Shown here: positions 35,364 through 43,561 of the stretch, piece after piece
Layout: the number at the start of each line of letters is the position of its first letter
Position numbering within the stretch: the first letter of the stretch is position 1
Assembly: GCF_003259185.1 (NCBI RefSeq)
Contig: NZ_QGMP01000001.1
Coordinates: 2,542,001-2,606,000 of the forward strand
Reading direction: 5' to 3'
Source: Isoalcanivorax indicus
GTDB taxonomy: Bacteria; Pseudomonadota; Gammaproteobacteria; Pseudomonadales; Alcanivoracaceae
Length of the DNA: 64,000 nt
Notes under the pieces: model-generated
What the model saw: only the letters and a program-made list of their open reading frames with translations
Told to the model about the DNA's origin: nothing
The model's database searches: none
Translations under genes and position numbers: made by a program

Positions 35364-38009
35364 TCAGCTTTCCTGGTCCGCCAGCGCCTCTATGGTCTTG
35401 CGCAGCTCGTCAGCCTTGTCATAGGACGGATACAGGTGCAGGTAGCGCTCATAGTAGGGAATCGCTTCCCGATAGCGCCCGAGCTTGACCATGACATCGC
35501 CCAGATTCAGATACAGAGGAATCCGTCGGGGGGACAATTCCACCGTGCGGAAGTACCACACCAGCGCTTCTTCATACTCGCCGAGGTTGTACAGCACATA
35601 GCCGTAATTGTTGACGATAGTGGGATTGAACGGATTCAGCCGCACCGCCTCTTCCCATTCACGGCGCGCCTCCTCCAGCCGTCCTTCCTGAAAGAACTCC
35701 AGGGCCGAGGCGTTGTAACGTCGCGCTTCGCGAATGCGATCCGCATCTGCGGCGGCATCCGTCGGTGCGACGGCCAGCGCATCCGGGTCCCGCTCCAGCG
35801 CCACCTGCAGATCAAGTCGGCGCCGCATGTCAGATTGCGTATCGCGGCGCAGCGCCTGCATCTGTTGTTCGACCTGCTCGGCTTCCCGCGACAGGGCCTG
35901 GCTCACTTCGGCCACTGCATGGGCTTCCAGGCGAAAAACAAAATCTCCGCCCTGGCTGCCCACCAGATTACCGAACACCGGGGTCTGGCTGGCATAGCTC
36001 GACACCACCGGCGCCAGGTACGTCCCCAGTTCCGAGGCGGTGACATAGCCGTTGTCGTCGGTATCGGCCAACCCCATCAGCCCCTGCAACAACGTCCAGG
36101 TAAAGATCGAATGGCCACCGGGCCCGCCGTCAGCCACTTCTTCATCAGCGCCACCGGCCGTAAGTATCTGCCGCGCACGGCGCTGGGTAATCCGCTCCAG
36201 ATACCCCTGACTCTGGCCTGTCGTCACCCCCGCCCGCGTCAGCGCCAGGCCGCTGTAACAACTGTCCATAACGAAAAACACATGCTTGGCTGGAATCGAC
36301 GCTGAAAAATCATCCAGTTCGCTCATGCTGATGCCACGAATCTGGTAGCGCTGCAGGTCGGCATCTGCCGGAATGATATAGCCCAGCGAGCCGCCATCCG
36401 GCATGGACCGGGTTGTGCCATGTCCGGCGAAAAAAACGAACACCCGGTCGTTTTCACCAACCCGTTCCGGGTCCGACAAGTGATACCCCAGCGCTTCGAT
36501 AATACGCTCCCGGGTCGCCTCAGCATCGTACAACCGAATGATATTCTGCTCAGGAAAGCCGAGCTTGGCGGCCAGCATGTCACCGACCGCACGTGCGTCG
36601 TTGACGGCATACTGCAAGCGCGGCCAGTGCTGATAATCGTTGATGCCGATGACCACCGCCCAGCTGTTGGCGTAAAGACGCTCATCGCGCACCGGCAACG
36701 TCAGGGCACCACCGGTGACTTCGTTGAACGGTTGGCCATCAAGAGCCACCACACGATAACCACGCTGGGCCAACGCCGTGAGAATGGTCGGTAACGCCTC
36801 AACGGTCTGGCGATGTATGTCATGAAACAGCAGGATGCCACTACCACGCTGATCAAGGGCCCTCAGCGTGCGGTCAGCGATGGATTCCGGGATCGGATCC
36901 GCCCAGTCCATCGAGTCGATGTTCCACATGATGGAGGCCATGCCCTTGCGGGCGGCCAACGCGTCGAGATCCTTGTCCTTGACGCCGTAGGGCGGCCGGA
37001 ACAGTGTGTTTTCCTCACCACCGATCGCCGAGATCAGCTGATTGGTCTTGCTCAACTCCCGTGCCCGCTCGTCCTCTGACAGGCGCGAAAACGCACGATG
37101 GCTGAAGCTGTGATTGGCCAGCACGTGCCCGTCTTCAACGATACGGCGCGCCGTGGCAGACGCATTCCCCAGAGTCACGACTCCCTCATCACTGACGCTG
37201 CCCAGCTTCTGGCCAAGGGTAAAAAAGTAGGCCGTGGCATCATATTCAGCGAGGATATCCAGAACGCGATTGGTACGCAGGGCATGCGGACCATCATCAA
37301 AGCTGAGCACCACTGTTTTTTCCGGCAACCCACCCCCCCATATGACCTGGGGAGCGCCCTGCACCGGAGCGGGGGAAGCCTCCTGGTCTGCCGCCATGGC
37401 TTCCAGTCGTTGCACCATCACCTCATCAGGCACTGATGCCAGCAGTTCCGGGAACGGATACCGGACGCTGATGGCGGCAATGTAGTGGTCCCAGCTTTCC
37501 CGCGCCCCTTCACCGCGCGTTATCAACTGGCTCATGGCACGGGTGTACTCTTCCCGATAGCTGCCAAGCACGGCGGCAATGCGCTCGTGCAGCTGTCGCA
37601 CCGGGGCCAGCCGGGGGCCATCGCCCACACGGAACTGCTCCAGCGCCAGTAACTCGTCCACCAGCCCGCCCAGTGCCAGCAAATCACCGTCACGCAGATC
37701 ATCGCGGCTGGCAATATGGTCCAGCAACGCCAGTGTCTGGGCGGTCAATCGACTTGACGGCGTCAGGACAGCATCGCGCTGCGCGCGACCGAGACTGGCC
37801 TCGACCAGCTCATGCTGGCGGGAATAATGAAAGCGTGCCACCGCCACAGCGCGCGTCTGTTGCGCCGGCTCCCATGACCCGCGCGCCGCACCATCGGCCA
37901 GAATAATCATCTTGCGATAGGCCGAGATGATGTCATCAAACGGCTCGGCAGCCGCCACCACCGGCACCCCGACCAGCAGGCACACGAGGGCTGTCACCCA
38001 ACGGAACAT
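35364..38009 (-). CDS. Secreted polysaccharide deacetylase-caspase-TPR fusion
   Basis: 881 aa. Signal peptide (about 1-21), a helical region, then a NodB/CE4 deacetylase (about 228-430): SFDDGPH (D238, D239), HSFSH (300-304), RPPYG (338-342), FHDIH (about 395). Next a C14 caspase-like domain (about 448-695): VVIGINDYQ, FAGHG with His530, VMDSCYSG with Cys584. An EF-hand-like loop DTDDNGYVTASE (649-660) lies within it. Three TPRs fill about 765-875. Start ATG at 38009 has GGGGGA upstream; a TTG two codons before is less likely. Divergent from the sortase-substrate operon. Predicted periplasmic or cell-surface; the joint role is unknown. Confidence 0.85.
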   Translation of the reverse strand: MFRWVTALVCLLVGVPVVAAAEPFDDIISAYRKMIILADGAARGSWEPAQQTRAVAVARFHYSRQHELVEASLGRAQRDAVLTPSSRLTAQTLALLDHIASRDDLRDGDLLALGGLVDELLALEQFRVGDGPRLAPVRQLHERIAAVLGSYREEYTRAMSQLITRGEGARESWDHYIAAISVRYPFPELLASVPDEVMVQRLEAMAADQEASPAPVQGAPQVIWGGGLPEKTVVLSFDDGPHALRTNRVLDILAEYDATAYFFTLGQKLGSVSDEGVVTLGNASATARRIVEDGHVLANHSFSHRAFSRLSEDERARELSKTNQLISAIGGEENTLFRPPYGVKDKDLDALAARKGMASIMWNIDSMDWADPIPESIADRTLRALDQRGSGILLFHDIHRQTVEALPTILTALAQRGYRVVALDGQPFNEVTGGALTLPVRDERLYANSWAVVIGINDYQHWPRLQYAVNDARAVGDMLAAKLGFPEQNIIRLYDAEATRERIIEALGYHLSDPERVGENDRVFVFFAGHGTTRSMPDGGSLGYIIPADADLQRYQIRGISMSELDDFSASIPAKHVFFVMDSCYSGLALTRAGVTTGQSQGYLERITQRRARQILTAGGADEEVADGGPGGHSIFTWTLLQGLMGLADTDDNGYVTASELGTYLAPVVSSYASQTPVFGNLVGSQGGDFVFRLEAHAVAEVSQALSREAEQVEQQMQALRRDTQSDMRRRLDLQVALERDPDALAVAPTDAAADADRIREARRYNASALEFFQEGRLEEARREWEEAVRLNPFNPTIVNNYGYVLYNLGEYEEALVWYFRTVELSPRRIPLYLNLGDVMVKLGRYREAIPYYERYLHLYPSYDKADELRKTIEALADQES

Positions 38010-38167: not shown

Positions 38168-40204
38168 ATGATACGGCTTGCTCATATCACCCTGTGGCTG
38201 CTGGTCGCCTCACTGGCGCATGCCGACAGCCGCACACGCTGGCTCAACGAAGCCGAAACCGGCCAGCTACTGTTCCATGACGCCGAAAACGGGCGCTATC
38301 AGAGCGCGCTGCTGCAACAGAGTGATGTGCTCGTCCAGGTCAGCGGGCCGGTAGCCCACGTCACCCTGACACAGCATTTTCATAATCAGGGCCGGGAATT
38401 CGGTGAAGCACTCTATGTCTTTCCGCTGCCTGAGAGTGCGGCCATTCATCACATGGAAATTCAGGTGGGCGAGCGCCGTATCACAGGCGAAATAAAGGAA
38501 CGTGCCGAGGCGCGCGCCCGCTACCAGCAAGCACGCGCCGAGGGCCGCCATGCCGGCCTCACCGAACAGCTACGCCCCAACCTGTTCACCACCAGCGTTG
38601 CCAACATTGCCGGCGGCGAAACCGTCAGCGTGACACTCCGCTACTCGCAGGTCCTGACACGAGATGGCGCCAGCTTCAGCCTGCGTCTGCCGCTGACCGT
38701 GACGCCCCGCTACCAGCCATTGATGCGCACACACCCGCTGGATGACGTGACCGGACACAATGATCACCATGGCCATCCGGTGACACTGCCTCTGGATATA
38801 CACGAGATGGCAGACGCCACGGCACGGATGTCCGCCCGCGCCCAACAGGCCACCATCGCCGTTCATGTGGATGCCGGATTGCCCATCAGCAATCTGCACA
38901 GCTCAAGTCATGACGTTCGCCAGACCTTCGACGGCAACGGCTACCTGGTGGCCCTTGAACAGGAACAGACCCCCATGGATCGTGACTTCCTGCTCTCCTG
39001 GACACTGGAAGCGGGCGCCCGGAGCGAAGCCGCCCTGTTCACGGAAACCGTGAACGACGCCCATTACGGTCTGCTGATGCTGATGCCGCCCGCCCCTGCA
39101 ACTCTGGAGCGCTTGCCACGCGAACAATTGCTGATCGTCGATACGTCCGGCTCCATGCACGGCCAGCGCATGCAACAGGCGCGGGAAAGCCTGGAGTACG
39201 CGCTCGCGCGCCTGACCCCGGGTGACCGGTTCAACGTACTCGAGTTCAACCATGTTCACCGCAGTCTCTTTCCTGAGCCGATGCCGGTCACTGCCGAGAA
39301 CCTTGCCCTGGCCCGAGGCTTCATCAACGGCCTGCGTGCTGGCGGCGGCACGGAAATGCTGCCGGTACTGCGCACCGCCCTGAACATGCCGACCTCTGCC
39401 GAACACCTGCGGCAAATTCTGTTCATCACCGACGGTGCCGTCTCGAATGAACATGCCGTGCTGGCGCTGGTGCGCCAGCGCATCGGTGAGGCACGTTTCT
39501 TCAGTGTCGGTATTGGCGCCGCGCCGAACAGTTTCCTGATGCGCGAGCTGGCCTCTGCCGGGCGCGGCACCTATACCTATATCCACAACACCTCGGAAGT
39601 GCGTGCCCGGATGAACCGTCTGCTGGACAAGGTCGCACACCCGGTCATTCGCGATATCACGCTGACACTCCCGGAAGGCATCGAGTGGTCGCTGGCCGCC
39701 GACGAGATACCCGACCTGTATCTGGGCGAACCGGTCATGCTCAGCTTGCGCATGGACAAACTGCCGTCGTCTCTGACTGTTCGCGGCCAAACGCCTGAAC
39801 CCTGGGCACGCGTGGTGACACGCACCCCGATACCCCATGCCGGCATCGGCAGTCTCTGGGCACGGGAACGGCTGCGCACACTGATGGCGCAGCAAGGCCC
39901 TGGCCAGATCGACAGCCGCCTGCGTGACGACATTGTGGATGTCGCTCTGACACACCGTCTGGTCAGTCGGTACACCAGCTTTGTTGCCGTCGATGACACC
40001 CCGGTGCGCGATCCCGATACGCCGCTGGAGAGCGGCCATATTTCGGCCCGCCTGCCCGTGGACATGGCCACCGCCGATCACACCCATGTTCCGTATCCGG
40101 CAACGTCACTAGGGTTGAAATCGCGACGGAACCTGGCCCTGGCCCTGCTGCTGCTCGGTGTGCTACTGCACCTGACCACCCGGAAACAGGCTCATGCGCG
40201 CTAA
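38168..40204 (+). CDS. VIT/VWA protein, marine proteobacterial sortase target family
   Basis: 678 aa. Signal peptide (1-19), VIT domain (about 35-165), VWA domain with the metal-ion site DTSGSMHG (325-332), then beta-rich region and a C-terminal sorting signal: YPATS (643-647), basic residues, a hydrophobic helix and a basic tail. Architecture matches the inter-alpha-trypsin-inhibitor-like proteins that are the sole dedicated targets of class GN sortases in Gram-negative marine bacteria. The next gene, overlapping by 11 bp, is that sortase. Function of the family is unknown; surface or envelope display inferred. Confidence 0.9.
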   Translation: MIRLAHITLWLLVASLAHADSRTRWLNEAETGQLLFHDAENGRYQSALLQQSDVLVQVSGPVAHVTLTQHFHNQGREFGEALYVFPLPESAAIHHMEIQVGERRITGEIKERAEARARYQQARAEGRHAGLTEQLRPNLFTTSVANIAGGETVSVTLRYSQVLTRDGASFSLRLPLTVTPRYQPLMRTHPLDDVTGHNDHHGHPVTLPLDIHEMADATARMSARAQQATIAVHVDAGLPISNLHSSSHDVRQTFDGNGYLVALEQEQTPMDRDFLLSWTLEAGARSEAALFTETVNDAHYGLLMLMPPAPATLERLPREQLLIVDTSGSMHGQRMQQARESLEYALARLTPGDRFNVLEFNHVHRSLFPEPMPVTAENLALARGFINGLRAGGGTEMLPVLRTALNMPTSAEHLRQILFITDGAVSNEHAVLALVRQRIGEARFFSVGIGAAPNSFLMRELASAGRGTYTYIHNTSEVRARMNRLLDKVAHPVIRDITLTLPEGIEWSLAADEIPDLYLGEPVMLSLRMDKLPSSLTVRGQTPEPWARVVTRTPIPHAGIGSLWARERLRTLMAQQGPGQIDSRLRDDIVDVALTHRLVSRYTSFVAVDDTPVRDPDTPLESGHISARLPVDMATADHTHVPYPATSLGLKSRRNLALALLLLGVLLHLTTRKQAHAR

Positions 40205-40754
40205 CCGGCTGCTGGCTATCGGCCTGCTGATCTGCGCTGCGCTGCTGCTGGGCCAGAACGGCTGGCTGCATGCCAAGGCCTGGCTGGCCGGGCAACTGAT
40301 CGAGGCCGCCTGGGCCAGAACACTGCAAGGCGATGACGCCGTGCGCCCCTGGCCGTGGGCAGACACCTGGCCAGTCGCCCGCCTGACGCTGCCCGGCGGC
40401 CGCCACCACATCGTGCTGCACGATGCCTCGGGCCAGAGCCTGGCTTTCGGCCCCGGGCTGCTCCCCGGCAGCACCCCGGCGGGCACACCCGGCACGCTGG
40501 CCATCGCCGGCCATCAGGACACCGTCTTCCGGGCACTGGAAAACATATCCATGGATGATCTGCTGCATATTCAGCGCCGCAGCGGCGACATGCTGGCCTA
40601 CCGGGTGACCCGTATCGACATCGTGGACAGCCGCACACAGATGGCCGTGCTCTCCCCGGCGAGCGACACCCTGATGCTGGTCACCTGCTATCCTTTCGGG
40701 GCACCGGCGGGCACACCGTGGCGTTACGTGATTCATGCCCAACGGGATATTTGA
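40194..40754 (+). CDS. Class GN sortase
   Basis: 186 aa. One N-terminal membrane anchor (about 5-22) and the sortase triad in AGHQDTVFR (H107), LVTCYPFG (C165) and WRYVIHA (R177). It should cleave the C-terminal signal of the VIT/VWA protein encoded just upstream and transfer it to an envelope acceptor. Gram-negative GN sortases typically have this single paired substrate. The start overlaps the substrate's stop by 11 bp, and creB follows closely. Confidence 0.92.
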   Translation: MRANRLLAIGLLICAALLLGQNGWLHAKAWLAGQLIEAAWARTLQGDDAVRPWPWADTWPVARLTLPGGRHHIVLHDASGQSLAFGPGLLPGSTPAGTPGTLAIAGHQDTVFRALENISMDDLLHIQRRSGDMLAYRVTRIDIVDSRTQMAVLSPASDTLMLVTCYPFGAPAGTPWRYVIHAQRDI

Positions 40755-40826
40755 AGTATGCTGTCAAACCTGAATCCCTTCAGCACAGGCGCTCCCCCTA
40801 CCCACCCAGGCAAGGACGCAACAGGC

Positions 40827-41525
40827 ATGCCCGAAACAATACTGCTGGTTGAAGACGAAACTGCCATCGCCGATACCCTGGTCTACGCCCTGGAAAGCGA
40901 GGGCTTCACCGTAGTGTGGCGACGACTGGCAGGCGAAGGCCTGAACTATCTGGCCTCTGCTCACGCCGATCTGGTCATTCTGGATGTGGGCCTGCCCGAC
41001 GAGAACGGCTTTGATGTCTGCCGCCGCCTGCGCCAGCAATGGTCCATGCCGGTGATTTTCCTCACTGCGCGCAAGGAGGAAGTGGATCGTATCGTCGGCC
41101 TGGAGATCGGTGCCGATGACTATGTCACCAAGCCATTCAGCCCCCGCGAGGTGGCCGCGCGCGTACGTGCGGTGCTGCGCCGCACGTTGCACCAGGCTGT
41201 CTCACCTGCAGAAAGCGGTAAGCCGCACACGGCGTTCGCTCTGGACGACGATGGCAAACGCATCGCTTTTCGAGGTCGATGGCTGGACCTGACGCGCTAC
41301 GAATACCAGGTACTGCGCGTACTGGCCGAGCGCCCCGGCCGCGTATTCAGCCGCGCCCAGTTGATGGACCAGGCCTGGGAAGACCCGGCACAGAGTTTTG
41401 ATCGCGCCGTCGACACCCATATCAAGACGCTGCGCGCCAAGTTGCGGCAGATCGACCCGGACTGCAACCCCATCCGGACCCATAGAGGCCTGGGTTACAG
41501 CGTCGCCAGCGAGCCCTCCGCATGA
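40827..41525 (+). CDS. creB: Response regulator CreB
   Basis: 232 aa, OmpR family. Receiver with phospho-acceptor D53 (ILDVGLPDENGF) and K102; winged-helix output with ARPGRVFSR-like helix region and DTHIKTLRAKLR. It shares long runs with E. coli CreB (EETIADTLVY-type start, GLEIGADDYV, KPFSPREV, THRGLGYS). I use ATG at 40827 (MPETILLVEDE); an earlier ATG at 40758 adds 23 residues without family support. creC overlaps its stop by 4 bp. Confidence 0.88.
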   Translation: MPETILLVEDETAIADTLVYALESEGFTVVWRRLAGEGLNYLASAHADLVILDVGLPDENGFDVCRRLRQQWSMPVIFLTARKEEVDRIVGLEIGADDYVTKPFSPREVAARVRAVLRRTLHQAVSPAESGKPHTAFALDDDGKRIAFRGRWLDLTRYEYQVLRVLAERPGRVFSRAQLMDQAWEDPAQSFDRAVDTHIKTLRAKLRQIDPDCNPIRTHRGLGYSVASEPSA

Positions 41526-42970
41526 CACTGAGCCTGCGCATATTCATCGGATATTTTCTGCTGGTCGGGCTGGGCATGATGGTCTTCCTGTACAGCACCT
41601 ACGATCAGCTTCACCCTGTGTTGCGCCAGGCCAGCGAGGAAACCCTGGTCGACACCGCCAACCTGCTGGCCGAGTTCGCACCAGCGGCCCTGGCCGAAGA
41701 CGACCCGGCCAGCAGCGCCTTCGCCTCCACCATCGAACGCTATACACAGCGGCCCCTCAATGCGCGCATCTGGTTGCGGGAGAAAACCACCCCCGGTATC
41801 GATGTCTACCTGACCGATGCGCAAGGCCGGGTGGTATTTCATACGCGCCCGGAAGAAACCGGGGCCGACTACGGACGCTGGCGCGACGTCAGCCTGACGC
41901 TGGCAGGTGAGTACGGCGCGCGCACCACCCGCCTCGACCCCGACGACGAACTCACCAGCGTCATGTACGTTGCCGCCCCGGTCCGGCGTGACGGCGAGAT
42001 CATCGGCGTACTCACCGTGGCCCAGCCGAATCTGAACATCCAGCCCTTCCTTGACTATGCACGACGGCAGATCCTGCAGCTGGGCAGCGGCATCCTGTTG
42101 GTGTCGCTTTTGCTTGGCGGGGTCATCTCGGTGTGGCTGACCCGCTCGATACGCCAGCTGGTGCAATACGTGGAGCGCGCTGGCCGCGGCGACAAGGTAC
42201 AACCCCCCATTCTGCGCGAAACGTCCCTGGCGCGGCTGGCCGCCTCCACCGAGCGCATGCGGCGAGAGATCGAGGGTAAAGCCTACGTAGAGCGCTATGT
42301 CGAGAATCTGGCGCATGAAATGAAATCACCGCTGTCAGCCATTCGCGGCGCTGTGGAGATTCTCCAGGAACCCGATACCGGCGCAAGAAACCGGGAGCGC
42401 TTCCTGGATAACATTGATCTGGAGTCACGGCGCATGCAGCGCCTGATCGATCGCCTGCTGTCACTGGCAGCACTGGAGAACCGGCATACCCTGAATGCGG
42501 TGGAAACCGTGGATATGGCCACATTGGTCCGCGATGAGATCACACGACGGGCGCCCCATACCGAAGCCCGACAGATTCAGGTACTGGTCTCCACCAGCGG
42601 CTCCCCCCGGCTTGAGGGCGAGCGCTTCCTGCTCGCCCAAGCCGTCAGCAACCTGCTCGACAACGCCCTGGACTTCTGCCCGCCCGGGGGCACCGTCATG
42701 CTTCACCTGGCCCGGCGTGGGGATGAGCTGGTCCTGAGCCTGCACAATGACGGCGACCCGATCCCCGACTATGCCCGCCCCCGGGTATTCGAGCGCTTCT
42801 ACTCCCTGAGCCGCCCGGACAGCGACCGCCGCAGTACGGGCCTGGGTCTGAGCTTCGTCCGCGAGATCGCCGAGCTGCATCAGGGCCGGATAGCGCTGGA
42901 CAATGCCGTCGGCGGCGGGGTGATTGCTGTCCTGACGCTACCGGCACTAGCGGAAGGTCGGGTGCAGTAA
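41522..42970 (+). CDS. creC: Sensor histidine kinase CreC
   Basis: 482 aa. Two membrane helices (about 7-25 and 183-206) flank a periplasmic sensor region with VYLTDAQGRVVFHT and DELTSVMYVAAPV, as in E. coli CreC; HAMP-like linker, HisKA with phospho-acceptor H265 (LAHEMKSPLSAIRG) and a HATPase with NLLDNALDF and TGLGLSFV. With CreB it forms the carbon-source/envelope-responsive Cre system. The usual target gene creD is not in the window. Confidence 0.88.
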   Translation: MTLSLRIFIGYFLLVGLGMMVFLYSTYDQLHPVLRQASEETLVDTANLLAEFAPAALAEDDPASSAFASTIERYTQRPLNARIWLREKTTPGIDVYLTDAQGRVVFHTRPEETGADYGRWRDVSLTLAGEYGARTTRLDPDDELTSVMYVAAPVRRDGEIIGVLTVAQPNLNIQPFLDYARRQILQLGSGILLVSLLLGGVISVWLTRSIRQLVQYVERAGRGDKVQPPILRETSLARLAASTERMRREIEGKAYVERYVENLAHEMKSPLSAIRGAVEILQEPDTGARNRERFLDNIDLESRRMQRLIDRLLSLAALENRHTLNAVETVDMATLVRDEITRRAPHTEARQIQVLVSTSGSPRLEGERFLLAQAVSNLLDNALDFCPPGGTVMLHLARRGDELVLSLHNDGDPIPDYARPRVFERFYSLSRPDSDRRSTGLGLSFVREIAELHQGRIALDNAVGGGVIAVLTLPALAEGRVQ

Positions 42971-43027: not shown

Positions 43028-43561
43028 ATGGATTTTGCAAAAGTGCCTGCTGGCAAGGACATTCCCAACGATATCAACGTCGTCATCGAAATTCCGGCCA
43101 ATGCCTCCCCGATCAAGTACGAGATCGACAAGGACAGCAACGCCATCGTGGTAGATCGCTTCATGGCAACGCCGATGTTCTACCCGGCCAACTACGGCTA
43201 TATCCCCAACACCCTGTCCGAGGACGGTGACCCGCTGGACGTACTGGTGGTGACCCCCTACCCGGTGGTGCCCGGTGCCGTGATCCGCTGCCGCCCGGTG
43301 GGTGTGCTCAACATGAGCGACGAATCCGGCCAGGACGCCAAGCTGATTGCTGTGCCCCACGACAAGCTGACCAGCCTCTACAAGGACGTGCAGGAATACA
43401 CCGACCTGCCGACCCTGCTGATCCAGCAGATCGAGCACTTCTTCGAGAACTACAAGGATCTGGAAGCAGGCAAATGGGTGAAGGTAGACGGCTGGGACAA
43501 TGCCGAGGCCGCCCGCAAGGAAGTCATCAAATCCGTCGACGCCTACAAGAACGACCAGTAA
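43028..43561 (+). CDS. ppa: Inorganic pyrophosphatase
   Basis: 177 aa, class I soluble pyrophosphatase. Signature [12 protein letters not shown] (family D-[SGDN]-D-[PE]-[LIVMF]-D), the metal-binding aspartates in the same region, and FFENYKDLE with VDGWDN near the C-terminus. It hydrolyses PPi in the cytoplasm and drives biosynthetic reactions. The preceding 57 bp contain its own promoter. Confidence 0.97.

Follow-up and report, generated by a model that had tools for sequence, protein, structure and literature searches.

A stretch of 64,000 nucleotides of Isoalcanivorax indicus, referred to below as the window, encodes a protein that joins a NodB-type polysaccharide deacetylase (CE4), a caspase-like C14 peptidase and tetratricopeptide repeats (TPRs) in one chain. 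This fusion is real, intact, widespread and already described. The new part is its neighbourhood in the lineage of the window, where the gene lies in a five-gene insertion together with a class GN sortase, a VIT-vWA sortase target and the CreBC two-component system. From the observed domains, their conservation, a structure model and the insertion we infer, with a probability of about one half, that the protein is an exported peptidoglycan deacetylase with a calcium-dependent, Arg/Lys-specific metacaspase that cuts itself at R592, that its TPRs bind partners and that it acts in envelope stress with the CreBC set.

Domains, conservation and distribution of the fusion protein

The gene occupies positions 35364-38009 on the minus strand, from the ATG at 38009 to the stop at 35364, and was delimited by its open reading frame and Pfam matches. 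Its product has 881 amino acids, and all features named in this paragraph are encoded on the same strand. A putative signal peptide of about residues 1-21 (37947-38009) was read by eye from the translation and supports the likely export of the chain, which the sequence-only reading had called secreted. Behind it follow a helical N-terminal domain (residues 24-206, 37392-37940), seen in the structure model and with no Pfam family above cut-off, the NodB/CE4 deacetylase (residues 228-424, 36738-37328; Pfam, structure matches and a 49-row alignment), the C14 metacaspase-like domain (residues 446-693, 35931-36674; Pfam, structure and sequence matches) and the TPR region (residues 752-880, 35370-35756; Pfam and structure model). 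Inside the peptidase domain we located the catalytic His530 (36420-36422) and Cys584 (36258-36260) by residue numbering and the 49-row alignment, and an EF-hand-like loop at residues 649-660 (36030-36065) by motif pattern and alignment. The Pfam matches were well above cut-off for Polysacc_deac_1 (residues 228-358, 1.6e-28), Peptidase_C14 (residues 450-648, 1.8e-17) and TPR_2 (three stretches, 1.7e-15), and under the cut-offs for the EF-hand models (E of only 0.034 and 0.093). The earlier claim that deacetylase, caspase-like domain with an EF-like loop inside it, and TPRs follow one another in one chain is thus borne out by open reading frame, Pfam and alignment. Searches of the organism's own genome gave three C14 matches and two deacetylase matches, and the fusion was the sole locus common to both lists.

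The five NodB motif regions, which had been described as intact, could all be read from the translation: FDDGPH (237-242), NHSFSH (299-304), RPPYG (338-342), DSMDWAD (365-371) and LLFHD (393-397). The C terminus, read in the same way, ends in ...YPSYDKADELRKTIEALADQES and has no sorting signal with a hydrophobic helix, so the fusion protein is not expected to be a substrate of the class GN sortase. Judged from its sequence, it is most likely exported and soluble in the lineage of the window; some relatives are apparently lipoproteins.

In order to assess conservation we used a wide scan, which found 350 relatives in 360 stretches and of which the best 80 were kept, and an earlier alignment of ten full-length sequences that match end to end. 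The final alignment of 49 full-length rows is a chosen subset among 91 full-length sequences and holds the window protein, 42 of the 80 homologues from the wide scan and 6 of 10 other homologues. D238, D239, H300, H304, H396, H530 and C584 are invariant in all 49 rows, the window's included. The protein of the window has the complete CE4 set, and its His530/Cys584 dyad had been numbered correctly. We take the CE4 residues to be, in this order, the catalytic Asp, the Asp-His-His metal triad and the catalytic His. The assignment agrees with the description of Bdellovibrio Bd3279 in the available part of its report (PMC4876506). D471, D582 and R592 are likewise invariant in 49 of 49 rows, as are D649 and E660 of the EF-like loop, in which every row has D or N at positions 651 and 653.

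The wide scan selected on two motifs, around D365-D371 and C584, and the conservation of these two therefore follows from the selection. The EF-like loop and R592 lie outside it: among the best 80 of the 350 relatives the loop pattern was found in 80 of 80, in line with the earlier report of a loop within the peptidase domain, and an Arg stands at the 592 position in 80 of 80. In all of these 80 an open reading frame extends over the match, and 79 cover at least 780 query residues. Strict patterns failed in a few of the 80 (HxxxH in 3, DSxDW in 1, NDA in 1); the five rows concerned are part of the 49-row alignment and have the residues there. An intact protease is fused to an intact deacetylase in every one of the 49 rows checked.

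The window protein belongs to the Xanthomonas-type metacaspases, an architecture that is widespread and was described in 2012 as polysaccharide deacetylase, metacaspase and one to three TPRs (PMC3501461). The two share the domains (PF01522, C14 and TPR), their order and the His/Cys dyad. According to the accessible text of that survey, the type is conserved in Xanthomonas, Xylella, Stenotrophomonas and two Acidobacteria, that is in Gammaproteobacteria and Acidobacteria, and all 17 Cys-His dyads are conserved. For the first three genera, the Acidobacteria not being included, trmE is reported as an operon neighbour, whereas the window gene adjoins an RND permease gene and the VIT-vWA gene; this is a difference in context and not in the protein. 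The sequence-only reading had known of no characterised protein with this order and had proposed an architecture search as a check. CE4, C14 and TPR in one chain prove not to be unreported, given the published type and the 80 relatives kept as the best of 350, so the statement fails for the architecture. It stands as far as characterisation is concerned, as the biochemical evidence cited in the accessible text is antibody cross-reaction (PMC3501461), and we found no biochemistry of a purified family member in the open-licence literature.

The best 80 of the 350 relatives come mostly from Burkholderiales (Proteobacteria) and further from Gammaproteobacteria, Acidobacteriota and Myxococcota, and two rows are titled Bacteroidota MAGs. 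Full-length homologues were found in 1 of 56 other genomes among the window's relatives, in 0 of 35 other genomes of its family, in 5 of 389 other genomes of its order, in 2 of 368 genomes of its class and in 5 of 397 genomes of its phylum, these draws overlapping. The phylum draw also held one broken copy (L051:54-2547, genome G825), in which the homologue runs over two frames and the first stretch contains a TAG; this may reflect a sequencing error or a gene that is really broken. Two further observations concern the labels of assemblies. The fusions from a Methylotenera MAG and from Roseateles puraquae (L113 and L093) hardly differ, with branches of about 0.005, an indication of a binning error. 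The sequence from a MAG titled Rhodospirillaceae (L056) falls among gammaproteobacterial ones with full support, by transfer or because the MAG is mislabelled.

Predicted activities of the catalytic domains

The AlphaFold2 model computed from the 49-row alignment has a mean pLDDT of 86.4 and a pTM of 0.60, the latter meaning that the relative placement of the domains is uncertain. It took the place of a first model from 10 sequences (pLDDT 72.6, pTM 0.39), which was weak and was set aside. We compared the model with solved structures using Foldseek and VIA-align. The CE4 domain matches solved CE4 enzymes with Z up to 25.7, the nearest being BA3943 mutants, Bc1960 and Bd3279 (Z 25-26). The C14 domain matches metacaspases and the paracaspase MALT1 with Z up to 22.7, the value for AtMC4, which was also matched in sequence (E 3e-5). 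Structure prediction had been proposed as a check on whether both sites are formed, and in the predicted structure both catalytic domains do match solved folds, CE4 on the one side and metacaspase/paracaspase on the other.

Among CE4 entries pneumococcal PgdA, which deacetylates peptidoglycan GlcNAc, gives the best sequence match. The structural alignment with Bd3279 (5jp6) comprises 299 residues between model positions 20 and 427 at an rmsd of 4.2 and thus partly crosses the N-terminal domain; the comparison was made with the whole-chain model, and helical bundles match easily. The sequence-profile match to 5jp6 is limited to the CE4 domain. Like the window protein Bd3279 has a CE4 domain and a helical N-terminal domain; unlike it, Bd3279 has neither C14 nor TPR. 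According to the available part of its report, Bd3279 has been demonstrated to deacetylate peptidoglycan GlcNAc, and its helical cap comprises about 100 residues and is confined to Bdellovibrio and relatives (PMC4876506). The helical N-terminal domain and the CE4 domain of the window protein together would most likely deacetylate the GlcNAc of peptidoglycan. The CE4 domain is nearly as similar to chitin deacetylases and xylan esterases (Z 22-25), and to our knowledge CE4 specificity cannot be read from motifs. The enzyme might accordingly act on exopolysaccharide, chitin or xylan, with the protease attached, rather than on peptidoglycan. We consider this unlikely in view of the better matches, the N-terminal overlap with Bd3279 and the wall-related neighbours in two clades.

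The C14 domain has the caspase fold, the His/Cys dyad and the acidic S1 residues that define C14B peptidases, and these it shares with AtMC4 and yeast Mca1. The latter two are eukaryotic and have no CE4 domain, and AtMC4 carries a large linker domain. D471 and D582 align by motif with Asp95 and Asp211 of TbMCA2, given in the available description as the acids of the metacaspase S1 pocket. Their presence leads us to expect cleavage after Arg or Lys rather than after DEVD. The same acids were found in 12 of 12 other C14 matches checked and are therefore not special to the CE4-C14-TPR family. The domain is most likely a calcium-dependent protease that would cut after Arg or Lys.

R592 (36234-36236, minus strand) lies eight residues past C584 in a disordered loop, residues 591-601 having a pLDDT below 50. 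For C14 relatives without CE4 the comparison comprised 11 covered rows, one further row spanning 448-587 only and L001 giving no match; in the covered rows the 592 position holds Arg or Lys in 6 and another residue or a gap in 5. On the strength of its conservation and of the loop, R592 is a candidate self-cleavage site, and no more than that. The C14 domain would first cut its own L2-type loop there, and the TPRs would hold partners or substrates. The available account of AtMC4 describes its activation by calcium through cuts in the linker. Gating by calcium, as well as a coupling of proteolysis to deacetylation, is plausible for the window protein. The evidence for the EF-like loop is a motif match, and we do not equate the loop with the calcium site of AtMC4 or yeast Mca1. 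We also considered whether the loop distinguishes the fusion and rejected this: D649 and E660 are both present in 5 of the 11 covered C14 relatives without CE4 and not in the other 6, so the loop is not unique to the family.

For the Xanthomonas homologue the accessible text reports a size mismatch, 55 versus about 100 kDa, with self-processing offered as a possible cause (PMC3501461). A cut at R592 would fit processing in general, though the predicted fragments of about 62 and 32 kDa, estimated from residue counts, differ from 55 kDa. It has been proposed for Xanthomonas that the caspase-like domain kills the cell, which would make the fusion an executor of programmed cell death. A homologous product of X. 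campestris pv. glycines cross-reacted with caspase and PARP antibodies (PMC3501461), and dying Xanthomonas cells are described as showing caspase-3-like (DEVD) activity (PMC4006831). The latter activity is not linked to the fusion gene in the text available, from which the words 'deacetylase' and 'metacaspase' are absent. The export signal and the S1 acids, which predict a basic residue and not Asp at P1, also speak against an executor of death, and we regard this explanation as improbable.

The five-gene insertion and its counterparts in relatives

Next to the fusion gene four genes follow on the plus strand. They encode a VIT-vWA protein and sortase target (38168-40204; TIGR03788, 659 bits), a class GN sortase (40194-40754; TIGR03784, 183 bits), the response regulator CreB (40758-41525, start codon uncertain; NF008296, 348 bits) and the histidine kinase CreC (41522-42970; NF008312, 583 bits), all above cut-off. 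Three congeners (G005, G001 and G003) lack the segment 35317-42953, whose right edge lies in the last codons of creC, at this site. In them the RND permease gene and the gene at 43028, which we recognised by eye as an inorganic pyrophosphatase, stand 63-89 bp apart; the flanking DNA of the window is 84% identical to that of G005. The segment of about 7.64 kb contains exactly the five genes. G005 (92% complete) gave no match to the fusion, the GN sortase or CreC. In G001 VIT, sortase, CreB and CreC stand at another site without the fusion (L170:3543-8546), and their proteins are 48-58% identical to those of the window versus 86% for the RND permease, which suggests that they were acquired separately. 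In G003 a GN sortase and CreC are present away from this site. The simplest interpretation is an insertion in the lineage of the window; the alternative would be a loss in the three congeners. The composition of the segment is unremarkable (GC 0.60-0.66 versus 0.57-0.67 in the flanks shown), and no repeat flanking both of its edges was found.

The sortase and its VIT-vWA target correspond to the class GN sortase system (TIGR03784/TIGR03788), the dedicated proteobacterial one. The regulators dedicated to that system, TIGR03787 and TIGR03785, are below cut-off in the window, where CreBC stands instead, and the fusion is an extra gene relative to it. A single DNA block that unites the fusion with sortase, target and CreBC looks new. 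We found no paper joining CE4-C14-TPR with a sortase in the open-licence literature searched, which is not a claim of absence.

In the 49-row tree the window protein groups with L055 (Cellvibrio), L056, L042 (genome G370) and L041 (genome G036) with a support of 100/100. Within this clade of five rows CreBC adjoins the fusion in four and the sortase pair does so in three of those, the gene orders differing. In the window the fusion is divergent from VIT-sortase-CreB-CreC; in L042 it follows the same four genes convergently; in L055 all five genes are on one strand with 81 bp from creC to the fusion. L056 has creB-creC-creD-fusion on one strand without a sortase (L056:4558-16239), and 5 bp past the fusion begins a bacterial alpha-2-macroglobulin gene, which is followed by an overlapping gene for a bifunctional penicillin-binding protein. 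L041 has none of the CreBC and sortase-set genes nearby; G036 has no CreC above threshold, and its GN sortase is on another contig.

The search for CreC covered 26 carriers of the fusion and three non-carriers. CreC was above cut-off in 14 of the 26 carriers and adjacent in 4, so the linkage is confined to the clade of the window. Six of the 26 have a GN sortase above cut-off: in 3 it is adjacent, in G036 it is on another contig, and in L057 and L064 the fusion contigs of 6.2 and 3.4 kb are too short for linkage to be judged. We also studied 20 other GN-sortase loci taken from 82 matching genomes. A CreB-like regulator at 34-39% identity was present in 10 of them, none was detected in 9 and one was of the CreBC type; the fusion was found in 0 of 20.

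In the sister clade of Reinekea and Colwellia 9 of 9 loci, from 6 distinct genomes, have a gene for a small protein immediately upstream of the fusion (for instance L043:8287-8814); both copies scanned with Pfam contain a 3D domain. We rejected a cell-wall theme across all carriers: outside the two clades, 20 of 30 neighbouring open reading frames (15 loci) were scanned and yielded one wall enzyme (GH25), the rest being mostly unrelated. A neighbour cluster of 12 loci was also dropped, as it includes frames antisense to the fusion gene itself (L048, L069). Separately, 9 of the best 80 of 350 relatives, which are 9 of the 13 titled Janthinobacterium, have a DUF4284/Imm22-like gene after the fusion. 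This gene lies 1 and 3 bp from the fusion in L134 (10548-10925) and L085, the two loci on which Pfam was run.

For the regulation by CreB we take the consensus of its box to be TTCAC-N6-TTCAC. With up to 2 mismatches the window holds 33 sites versus 32.4 expected, and the box is not significant upstream of genes in the window, L042, L055 or L170. Of 134 loci, 2 have an exact box: L056, where it stands between creC and creD, and L055, where it lies inside an open reading frame. The window thus gives no support for control by CreB through the known box. CreBC is activated on loss of penicillin-binding protein 4 in P. aeruginosa, according to the accessible part of the report (PMC2654508), and this response ties the neighbour genes of the lineage to the cell wall.

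Possible joint function and significance

The five genes may have come together by coincidence of a transferred segment, the fusion being unrelated to sortase or CreBC. Most carriers lack the linkage, the 20 other sortase loci lack the fusion, the congener G001 keeps VIT-sortase-CreBC without it and the published box is not significant upstream of the window genes. Against this, the genes stay adjacent despite differing orders in the window, G370 and Cellvibrio, and the insertion consists of exactly these five. Weighing both, we hold coincidence to be a serious possibility that falls somewhat short of even odds.

We prefer the reading in which the gene, as it travels with GN sortase, VIT-vWA target and CreBC, probably serves an envelope-stress response in the lineage of the window. 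A more specific proposal is that the five genes form a transferable envelope-surveillance module. CreBC would sense wall damage and induce the VIT-vWA protein, anchored at the surface by the sortase, and the fusion; the deacetylase would mark damaged peptidoglycan, and the calcium-gated metacaspase, released by the cut at R592, would process a partner, for example the VIT-vWA protein. In this detailed form we think the proposal improbable. If it were true, the module would be a case of a bacterial metacaspase in wall remodelling, distinct from cell death. Bacterial metacaspases are described in the available part of the 2012 survey as a largely uncharted field (PMC3501461). Most of them are without known substrates, and the lineage of the window offers a short list of partners and a candidate cleavage site.
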